DNA from: Labilibaculum manganireducens
GTDB lineage: Bacteria; Bacteroidota; Bacteroidia; Bacteroidales; Marinifilaceae
DNA length: 50,671 bases
Direction: 5' to 3'
Assembly (NCBI RefSeq): GCF_002843385.1
Contig: NZ_MVDE01000036.1
Location: 1-50,671, forward strand
Below, piece after piece: positions 1-3,632 of this stretch. Made by a program: the position numbers and the translations under genes. Position 1 is the first letter of the stretch; each line of letters opens with the position of its first letter. The notes below the pieces were generated by a model, which worked only from the letters and a program-made list of their open reading frames with translations, was not told the origin of the DNA and ran no database searches.

Positions 1-74
1 TAAGTAACCAAATAGACCATATTCCATTTTCCTAATAAAATAAACCTAGTAGTAACCAATAAAACCAAACAGCA

Positions 75-176
75 ATGAAAAATTTTGAAATAGTATCCCA
101 GGAAGAATTACAGAACATCAAAGGTGGCATCAACGAAATGACCGATAAATCAATATGTGACGATTACATCGTGTAA
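75..176 (+). CDS. Double-glycine leader peptide, copy 1
   Basis: A 33-residue peptide: leader MKNFEIVSQEELQNIKGG followed by core INEMTDKSICDDYIV. The leader has the LxxIKGG ending of double-glycine leaders that are cut by C39 peptidases of peptide-exporting ABC transporters, and resembles the leaders of Bacteroidetes natural-product precursors. The 15-residue core is acidic, has one Cys (core residue 10) and ends in hydrophobic YIV. No exporter, radical SAM or other maturase lies in the window, so whether the peptide is modified, and whether it is a signal, toxin or structural peptide, cannot be told. The start is supported by exact repetition of the ATGAAAAATTTTGAA context in all copies. 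It is too short for most gene callers. Confidence 0.85.
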   Translation: MKNFEIVSQEELQNIKGGINEMTDKSICDDYIV

Positions 177-247
177 GTAACCAAATAGACCATATTCCAT
201 TTTCCTAATAAATAACACCTAGTAGTAACCAGTCAAACCAAACAGCA

Positions 248-349
248 ATGAAAAATTTTGAAATAGTATCCCAGGAAGAATTACAGAACATCAAAGGCGG
301 TGTAAACGAAATGACTGAAAAATGCACCCTTGAGGATTGTATCGTGTAA
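248..349 (+). CDS. Double-glycine leader peptide, copy 2 (variant core)
   Basis: A 33-residue peptide with the same 18-residue leader as copy 1 but a different core, VNEMTEKCTLEDCIV. The variant core keeps the N-E-M-T start and the acidic-hydrophobic end but has two Cys (core residues 8 and 13) instead of one, so it could form an intramolecular disulfide or a two-thiol modification. Its upstream spacer is almost identical to those of the neighbours, so differences from copy 1 are concentrated in the core codons. Function unknown; the exporter and any modifying enzyme would have to be encoded elsewhere. Confidence 0.85.
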   Translation: MKNFEIVSQEELQNIKGGVNEMTEKCTLEDCIV

Positions 350-420
350 TGACCAGATTGATCATATTCCATTTTCCTAATAAATAACACCTAGTAGTTA
401 ACCAGTAAGACCAAACAGCA

Positions 421-522
421 ATGAAAAATTTTGAAATAGTACCTCAGGAAGAATTACAAAATACCAAAGGCGGTATCAACGAAATGACCGATAAATCAAT
501 ATGTGACGATTACATCGTGTAA
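421..522 (+). CDS. Double-glycine leader peptide, copy 3
   Basis: A 33-residue peptide whose leader differs from copy 1 at only two positions (S8P and I15T; the latter turns NIKGG into NTKGG) and whose core INEMTDKSICDDYIV is identical to copy 1. The sequence after its stop is unlike that of the earlier copies, so the 173-bp array ends here. The same substitution (TKGG) appears in copy 4, showing that the residue three before the cut site tolerates Ile or Thr. Confidence 0.85.
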   Translation: MKNFEIVPQEELQNTKGGINEMTDKSICDDYIV

Positions 523-542
523 GTGATATATCTTCAAAAAGA

Positions 543-573
543 TTGACAAAACAATTATAATGATTTATATTTA
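543..573 (+). promoter_or_regulatory. Possible promoter for peptide copy 4
   Basis: TTGAC at 543-547 and TATATTTA at 566-573 match the Bacteroidetes pattern (TTG near -33, TAnnTTTG near -7) with a 20-base gap, one base off in the second box. The ATG at 582 would then lie only a few bases from the start of transcription, so the call is weak. Confidence 0.3.
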
Positions 574-581
574 CTGAGCCC

Positions 582-683
582 ATGAAAAATTTTGAAGAAA
601 TATCTATACTAGAGTTGCACCTTACCAAAGGCGGTGTAAACGAAATGACCGATAAATCAATATGTGACGATTATATTGTTTAA
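582..683 (+). CDS. Double-glycine leader peptide, copy 4 (divergent leader, conserved core)
   Basis: A 33-residue peptide: leader MKNFEEISILELHLTKGG and core VNEMTDKSICDDYIV. It lies outside the 173-bp array with its own upstream sequence. The leader has diverged strongly from copies 1-3 except for the MKNFE start and KGG end, yet the core differs from copies 1 and 3 only by V for I at the first position. Retention of the core while the leader drifts is the best evidence that the C-terminal 15 residues are the functional product. The sensor-less histidine kinase gene follows 118 bases downstream on the same strand. Confidence 0.85.
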   Translation: MKNFEEISILELHLTKGGVNEMTDKSICDDYIV

Positions 684-3218: not shown

Positions 3219-3599
3219 TTAAAGATCTAAACTTTTTAGCACTTTAAACAAATTATCAATTTCAAAAGGTTTCGCGATATGACCATTCATACCATTTCTC
3301 AGACATTTTTCTTCGTTGGCAATCATGATATCTGCAGTTAAAGCTATAATTGGAATTTTCCGACCATTTTCCAGATTTCGAATTGCTCTCGTTGCATCTA
3401 ATCCATCCATTTCAGGCATCATGATATCCATTAAAATAAAATCGTAATCGCCTTGTTTAAACATCTCAATTGCCTCTATTCCGTTATTGGCAACATCAAT
3501 TAAATAACCATATCGTCTTAAAGTAAATTTAACAACGGTTTGATTTAACTTATTATCCTCAACTAATAAAATGGAATAGTTTTTTGTTTCCCAGCTCAT
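3219..3599 (-). CDS. Stand-alone CheY-like receiver protein
   Basis: A 126-residue single receiver domain with no output domain: acidic pocket E14-D15, phospho-acceptor D58 in LMDIMMPEMDG, T88 in IALTAD, and K110 in AKPF. The sequence resembles the receiver modules found at the C-terminus of hybrid kinases rather than an OmpR-type regulator. The start at MSWETKNYS is preferred over an upstream in-frame ATG (3632) because it places the first beta strand at the usual distance. It precedes ruvB by 137 bases and may share its transcript. As the closest phospho-acceptor to the receiver-less kinase at 802-1665 it is a conceivable partner, but that is inference. Confidence 0.9.
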   Translation of the reverse strand: MSWETKNYSILLVEDNKLNQTVVKFTLRRYGYLIDVANNGIEAIEMFKQGDYDFILMDIMMPEMDGLDATRAIRNLENGRKIPIIALTADIMIANEEKCLRNGMNGHIAKPFEIDNLFKVLKSLDL

Positions 3600-3632
3600 A
3601 TTGTATTTCGTGGATTTTTCAATGCAATGCAA

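Follow-up and report, generated by a model that had tools for sequence, protein, structure and literature searches.

What is a tandem array of minute double-glycine (GG) genes doing next to a histidine kinase that has no evident sensor? The window considered here, a stretch of 50,671 nt from Labilibaculum manganireducens, is the complete contig C36 of genome G000 and opens within such an array. A preliminary description had reported four 33-codon genes, with leaders ending in KGG and acidic cores of 15 residues, and had proposed that the array begins before the window. All four are found as open reading frames on the forward strand between 75 and 683 (Table 1), with the other copies 76–97% identical to copy 1, start-to-start distances of 173, 173 and 161 nt, and core variants that in this organism can be written I/VNEMTDKSICDDYIV. 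A fifth, most upstream copy closes contig C38 (C38:48306-48407), and because the first 52 nt of the window repeat the end of that contig, the two contigs very probably join inside the array, which thus does start further left. As the array spans a contig break, copies could have been collapsed and their true number may be higher; the single-contig genomes G027 and G033 carry five copies each.

Table 1. Coordinates of features in and near the array (positions in the window unless another stretch is named)
Feature	Position	Strand	Remarks
Array spacer	1..52	+	Identical to last 52 nt of contig C38
Copy 1, GG-leader precursor, 33 codons	75..176	+	ORF; core INEMTDKSICDDYIV; TIGR01847 19.3 bits
Copy 2, GG-leader precursor, 33 codons	248..349	+	ORF; core VNEMTEKCTLEDCIV
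Copy 3, GG-leader precursor, 33 codons	421..522	+	ORF; core INEMTDKSICDDYIV
Copy 4, last copy	582..683	+	Divergent leader type (NFEEIS..ELHLTKGG); core as in array mates
Soluble histidine kinase, 287 aa	802..1665	+	HisKA and HATPase_c; H, N and G boxes; same strand as array
Single-domain response regulator receiver	3219..3632	-	PF00072
TIGR04148 maturase	L003:7059-8285		Own GG precursor adjacent

Coding nature, leaders and cores of the array genes

Relatives had been named as a place to look for homologous mini-genes, and a peptide-model search finds them in 21 of 56 genomes of the family, covering 6 of 17 genera. The copies stand in tandem at every locus that no contig end cuts, the exception being a single-copy locus of a second type (L075 in genome G037). 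Within G000 itself, a protein model of the five copies returns those five and two weaker places, one on contig C15 that matches over the leader only (E 7e-5) and one on C42 that is likely a chance match (E 0.8). The array genes are coding, with a pattern beyond chance: differences between genomes fall in excess at the third codon position in three groups (positions 1/2/3: 100/118/304 for the first copies of eight genomes in genera g1 and g14; 48/52/100; 24/21/50), and codons with a single change are synonymous in 180 cases versus 85 non-synonymous in g1 and g14, the signal in g2 being weaker (27 versus 24).

Within the genus of the window (six genomes), the likeness of leaders is 0.84 between species versus 0.87 within a genome, and that of cores 0.69 versus 0.90. 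The last copy has a different leader in several genomes, and its core is more like that of its own array (0.84) than like those of other last copies (0.77; four genomes). We interpret such homogenised, species-differing cores as what would be expected of a specific signal. Array cores are 12–15 residues long (36 and 33 in a pair from genome G025), carry a net charge of -2 to -5 (one example per array genus) and have no conserved Cys. Among 32 hand-chosen peptides, one per genus or locus, 30 have acidic cores, and 21 contain an acid-x(0/1)-[ILV][ILVW] motif, as in DEDIL, EEDIL or DDYIV, versus a shuffled mean of 7.1 and a maximum of 14, the motif having been picked after the data were seen.

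The leaders had been described as targets of C39-type exporters, and this assignment holds up: copy 1 and the copy on C38 (19.4 bits) exceed the TIGR01847 cut-off of 15.7, with no match for copies 3 and 4. In the 32 peptides, position -12 is L, M, V or I in all, -8 is E, D or Q in 29 (E or D in 24), -7 is L or M in all and -4 is I, V or L in 31; residues -7, -4 and the GG were partly imposed by the search pattern, -12 and -8 being free. Together, these positions fit the C39 recognition pattern, as set out in the available part of its source (PMC6363468). The leader suggests that the array peptide is exported and cut after the GG. Gathering scores of class II bacteriocin models were not reached by copy 1 (PF10439, 19.8 against 27.1; PF04369, 20.8 against 23.1), and copy 4 matched none of the class II bacteriocin Pfam models.

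Neighbours of the array and candidate exporters

To the left of the array, and divergent from it, lies a gene for a 947-aa TPR-CHAT protein (PF12770, 194.7 bits), which holds this position in 20 of 20 genomes assembled there, 14 of them with CHAT and kinase on one contig; in genera g2 and g14 the outer flanks differ while CHAT, array and kinase persist. The protein carries the His/Cys motifs HLAMH (at 767) and SACN (at 816), and from the N-terminal hydrophobic stretch and C-terminal transmembrane stretch, present in all six CHAT proteins examined, it is predicted to face the periplasm. Beside CHAT is an ECF sigma factor (TIGR02937, 59 bits, above 42.9), adjoined by a protein of 258 aa that has a single transmembrane segment, resembles TPR proteins in its C-terminal part and is its putative anti-sigma factor. 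This pair lies left of CHAT except in g14, where it is found elsewhere.

CHAT and sigma each occur in 22 of the 56 family genomes, and these 22 are identical; since the genomes are kin by descent, the co-occurrence represents one or few events, not 22. The 22nd genome, G025, was missed by the peptide model and has two GG peptides divergent to CHAT, both ending ..SDDPIEEDILFD. GG peptides thus stand beside CHAT in 21 of the 22; in G037 contig ends cut the region, so that adjacency is not visible.

The structure model of CHAT is moderate (pLDDT 66, pTM 0.44). Its best Foldseek matches include plain TPR proteins, and it aligns with Craspase chains over about 700–930 columns (E 6e-9 to 2.5e-7), with low TM-scores (0.24–0.35 of the query) and 10–13% identity. 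The anti-sigma model was poor (pLDDT 47) and unusable; in searches of the PDB, the anti-sigma sequence gave weak TPR matches only and the sigma sequence no match at E 0.001. PADLOC returned uninformative matches, a weak TPR match on CHAT (0.004) and PDC-M43B over the kinase part (2e-10). Kinesin-light-chain TPRs bind tryptophan-acidic peptides, and matches to them had raised the idea of a similar ligand here; acid-x-W occurs in 5 of the 32 cores versus 5.1 when shuffled, so that this mode of binding is not used as support.

Several loci depart from the common layout. A second CHAT type, of 702 aa, is found at L075 (G037:C461, 2622-5375) with a single divergent GG peptide and no family kinase nearby. 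In the single-contig assembly G033 (L057, 5527-9367), the CHAT and anti-sigma genes appear frameshifted, by sequencing error or decay, and Ancylomarina euxinus (L171 / L066) has two tandem CHAT genes of 957 aa each beside a peptide pair.

On its other side the array is followed by the kinase, whose orthologue adjoins it in all 20 genomes with that side assembled. Its start is best placed at 802 (an ATG that gives the length of most orthologues), the listed start at 730 being an upstream GTG, and neither a transmembrane segment nor a sensor domain was found in it. The response regulator nearby belongs to a BLAST cluster present in 15 of the loci compared, with conserved synteny near the kinase, and is a possible partner of it. 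The preliminary description had set the array next to this kinase, calling it an orphan; as the main partner of the array we reject it: the kinase is soluble and sensorless, small kinases were found near a minority of distant CHAT genes (11 in 42 loci scanned), and the recurrent partner outside the family is TPR-CHAT with an ECF sigma/anti-sigma pair.

A leftward search for an exporter had been advised, and C39-ABC exporters are indeed encoded in G000, one of them 16 kb from the array and flanked by a biotin-lipoyl-like fragment. A C39 peptidase occurs in 21 of 21 genomes with the array versus 13 of 35 without it, all of these genomes being related by descent, so that Fisher values for such counts overstate their independence. 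In 18 of the 21, a C39-ABC gene is on the same contig, 12–46 kb from the array and not adjacent to it; in the single-contig genomes G027 and G033 it is the sole C39. An HlyD-cluster gene accompanies C39-ABC in 17 of 17 stretches from relatives (one checked by Pfam).

A maturase had likewise been suggested. A TIGR04148 radical SAM enzyme is in fact encoded on C38, with the array 11 kb onward from it, past a phenylalanyl-tRNA synthetase gene and others; it has its own precursor, and a crude motif tag finds radical SAM in the exporter slot of 2 genomes and not in the other 16 of the 18, while the array stays constant, so that it is unlikely to be the maturase of the array peptide and we rejected it in this role. 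Of the outcomes that the preliminary description had named as refuting, neither a genome devoid of exporter and maturase nor relatives devoid of homologues was encountered. The region around it (G000:C38:28457-37442, that is, L003:1-8986) encodes the C39-ABC, the radical SAM enzyme, a pseudo-rSAM-like protein and the GG precursor, and this exporter and radical SAM operon lies 11–20 kb from the array. The slot before C39-ABC varies among genomes in the manner of a cargo hot spot; in G000 and several more, its first gene encodes a 65-aa HTH protein and carries the 39-bp element described below. At a second C39-ABC locus, on contig C49 (L023:4325-13405), the accompanying genes encode an adaptor-like protein, a GG precursor of another kind and a C39-like membrane protein of 535 aa.

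A 39-bp element and CHAT loci beyond the family

The gap between CHAT and the array contains a 39-bp element, GGGTTAC[CT]TTTT-N10-GGAATAAAGGGGTGTAA, with one or two bases differing in some genomes and with two blocks, GGGTTAC and GGAATAAAGGG. It is present at 20 of 21 CHAT–peptide junctions, all 20 being those of main arrays, where 26–48 nt separate it from the first ATG, and absent from L075, where a version with 3 mismatches precedes another gene. Allowing up to 3 mismatches, the element is found in 24 of 56 genomes and its reversed control in 0 of 56. In the whole of G000, three sites reach this level: the array, the edge of contig C25 and one on C42. A matrix scan of about 125 kb of the same genome also gives three sites above 10 bits, at the array (62 bits, in the training set), the sigma gene (49) and the HTH/precursor/radical-SAM operon (33.5). 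In an Rfam scan of L001 and L003 at gathering thresholds, two tRNAs were the sole matches, with no sign that the element is a known RNA.

Genes downstream of the element include the array, the sigma gene and a gingipain-like protease of family C25 with a T9SS tail. At the sigma gene, the element ends 2–3 nt before the ATG in G000 (genus g1) and in one or more genomes from each of the genera g2, g9, g10, g11, g12 and g14; in G025 it stands 2 nt before the gene with 5 mismatches. Also downstream of it are the gene for the 65-aa HTH-like protein at the head of the exporter cargo slot (three genomes), with similar ones elsewhere, and a GG precursor near another C39; the remaining element-led genes share no obvious theme (lipoproteins and an EamA-like transporter among them, as judged by eye). 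The one element-led C25 protease checked scores 198 bits with PF01364. At L158:395-3343 (reverse strand), as at similar genes in g1, g11 and g12, the element lies about 100 nt upstream of the C25 protease gene; the site at the edge of contig C25 in G000 is similar.

The same element thus precedes the sigma gene and its candidate targets, as in ECF sigma autoregulation, and may be the promoter used by this sigma factor or else an operator. Its position before the sigma gene favours a promoter. The -35 and -10 boxes usual for ECF sigma factors are closer together than the two blocks here, and with this wide spacing the element may instead be an operator.

Outside the family, the CHAT profile matches in 151 of 393 Bacteroidales genomes, and 49 of the distant matches listed were inspected. 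A GG ORF divergent to CHAT is present at 18 of the 49 (8 of 29 and 10 of 20) versus 2 with one downstream; at the other 31 no divergent GG ORF met the pattern, which requires hydrophobic residues near -7 and -4, and several of these had short upstream flanks. The 29 best distant loci have 8 with divergent ORFs (10 ORFs), 1 upstream on the same strand and 1 downstream, against 1.0 for the four sides together in shuffles. The 20 further loci, hand-picked in roughly rank order from two CHAT length classes with contig-edge and partial matches skipped, have 10, 1 and 1, respectively. Another set of 20, drawn from the 29 so that 9 loci had an upstream GG ORF and 11 had none, adds nothing to the frequency. 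GG ORFs also occur at two of four distant named loci (L176 and L177), and L245 and L252 each have an extra one that the pattern overlooked.

Near CHAT, 35 of 40 loci match the sigma profile (E 1e-3) and 34 of 40 the anti-sigma profile (E 1e-2), counts made without a background control. When the family-trained element is applied out of sample, scores above 14 bits are reached upstream of distant GG genes in 9 of 22 cases, of sigma genes in 4 of 34, of small kinase genes in 2 of 11 and of other genes in 3 of 172, and upstream of none of 40 CHAT and 41 anti-sigma genes; 13 of the 22 GG genes and 30 of the 34 sigma genes stay at or below 14 bits. None exceeded it in base-shuffled copies, the shuffles for both GG ORFs and element keeping base composition only. 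At three loci with long-class CHAT (L228, L242 and L250), the element precedes a predicted secreted protein of 409–416 aa (with a ..YHND.. motif, by eye) in the place that the GG peptide occupies elsewhere; a comparable gene fills this position in L178 and L179.

A candidate signal circuit and its rivals

The reading that we prefer, with a probability of about 0.42, is a peptide-signal circuit in which an exported peptide gates TPR-CHAT, the anti-sigma factor is cut and sigma is freed. The array would provide, several times over, the precursor of a single short acidic peptide; cut after Gly-Gly and exported through a C39-ABC/HlyD exporter, it would give the signal of the circuit. CHAT, as an inner-membrane protein exposed to the periplasm, would contact this peptide via its TPR domain and, once gated, would cleave the transmembrane anti-sigma factor with its TPR-like periplasmic part. 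The freed ECF sigma would then transcribe from the 39-bp element, its targets being its own gene, the array (with the kinase behind it), some operons of C39-exporter cargo and the secreted C25 protease. The links among genes and element are well supported, for the sequence shows the array, its coding nature, its constant neighbours, the common element, the topology as predicted and an exporter in the genome. Export and cutting of the peptide, its action on CHAT, the binding of sigma to the element, the function of the anti-sigma factor, its cleavage by CHAT and the part played by the kinase are what we infer. A wider formulation is more doubtful: an order-wide Bacteroidales system in which pherotype-like secreted peptides bind the TPR of a periplasmic CHAT, this CHAT cleaves the anti-sigma factor and sigma, with positive feedback, turns on the peptide arrays, a secreted protease and operons for the export of natural products; Craspase would be the RNA-triggered version of the same logic.

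The C39-type leader would also suit a bacteriocin or other secreted natural product, whether its maturation involves radical SAM or another enzyme, with CHAT and sigma regulating only its production or immunity. This is unlikely: the C39-ABC and the radical SAM enzyme with its own GG precursor on C38 lie 11–20 kb from the array, and that operon and some cargo operons of relatives carry the element, but the array cores are short and acidic with no conserved Cys, and the array is constant among genomes whose exporter slots seldom bear the radical SAM tag. We regard it as quite unlikely that the peptide restrains CHAT, or the co-regulated C25 protease, as an inhibitor or pseudo-substrate instead of activating it. 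A caspase-like CHAT adjoining acidic peptides with a recurrent, post hoc acid-hydrophobic motif points that way, as does the element common to the C25 protease; the C39 leader and multiple gene copies, however, fit a diffusible signal equally well.

That the peptides stay in the cytoplasm, acting for instance on the neighbouring kinase, is improbable, for the leader residues at -12, -8, -7 and -4 and the GG match the C39 pattern and the partner that recurs outside the family is CHAT and not the kinase, even though a kinase with neither sensor nor transmembrane segment stands in the same orientation behind the array and small kinases do recur near distant CHAT genes. Still more remote is an old neighbourhood, shared in position without joint function. 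Many flanking genes are likewise syntenic within the family, yet the outer flanks change in two genera where CHAT, array and kinase remain, the CHAT/GG-peptide pair recurs outside the family, and the element is common to unlinked genes; the present data already weigh against this reading.

Among known systems, Craspase offers the closest proven logic for the peptide-signal circuit, and AlgW the closest peptide-gated logic. In the former (type III-E), the TPR-CHAT protease Csx29 cleaves Csx30, an inhibitor of the ECF factor CASP-sigma, according to the portion of the source at hand (PMC10028731). The likeness lies in a TPR-CHAT gene beside an ECF sigma and what would be its inhibitor, in the His and Cys motifs and in the fold match, with its low TM-scores. 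The genes annotated around CHAT, however, include no gRAMP/Cas7-11 or other Cas protein, and no CRISPR array was noted among them; CHAT here bears a hydrophobic segment towards its N-terminus and a transmembrane one towards its C-terminus, the putative anti-sigma factor has one transmembrane segment, and a GG-leader peptide takes the place of the guide RNA complex.

DegS and AlgW are inner-membrane proteases that, after binding a peptide C-terminus, cut a transmembrane anti-sigma factor (RseA or MucA) and so release sigmaE or AlgU. The predicted topology of CHAT and of the transmembrane anti-sigma factor fits this scheme, but those are serine proteases with PDZ domains and this is a caspase-like CHAT with TPR, whose ligand would be a dedicated multicopy exported peptide; AlgW senses the C-termini of OMPs or MucE, as stated in the accessible part of its source (PMC8545111). 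The CHAT model also matches, weakly, the transmembrane anti-sigma factor DdvA (PDB 8rw5; E 3.5e-7, TM 0.22–0.24), which ties such folds to ECF control; protease and putative anti-sigma factor are separate genes here, and they come with a peptide array. We take DdvA to be of Myxococcus origin and TPR-CHAT make-up.

With C39/PCAT double-glycine precursors, including Bacteroidales GG-leader and TIGR04148 loci, the array shares its leader register and a C39-ABC in the genome. It differs from them in lying beside CHAT, kinase and usually ECF sigma and not beside a maturase or exporter (the precursor-next-to-maturase arrangement of TIGR04148, GG_samocin, does not apply), in its tandem, near-identical copies and in its short acidic cores. 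What is new is that a protease/sigma logic is combined with dedicated peptides whose genes are multicopy and encode export leaders: tiny genes of an overlooked class are tied to a protease, a putative anti-sigma factor and a sigma factor through gene position, co-occurrence and an element in common. If the circuit is real, it would give the Bacteroidales a route of peptide signalling with species-specific cores and ECF sigma feedback, propose a role for TPR-CHAT proteases outside CRISPR and indicate what the sigma-control arm of Craspase is related to.

The open-access literature yielded no Bacteroidetes circuit of CHAT-TPR and ECF sigma, its CHAT/anti-sigma papers concerning CRISPR proteases and those naming TPR-CHAT in title or abstract likewise dealing with CRISPR, and no paper on double-glycine secreted peptides in Bacteroidetes; a prior description outside that literature is possible. 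A survey of Bacteroidales RiPPs has TPR and HK/RR genes in some clusters, with no mention of 'CHAT' or 'sigma factor' in the available part of its text (PMC10352776), and a graspetide survey mentions TPR genes, with neither 'CHAT' nor 'sigma factor' in the part of its text at hand (PMC8939145).

Elsewhere in G000, contig C15 encodes a GG peptide with an array-like leader and the core EMREGGRTVGAGQITEIIE (L022:5806-5925, reverse strand). Its neighbour is a 640-aa protein, by eye a histidine kinase of the LytS type whose TPR domain is periplasmic, and the two are possibly a sister pair of peptide and TPR receptor.
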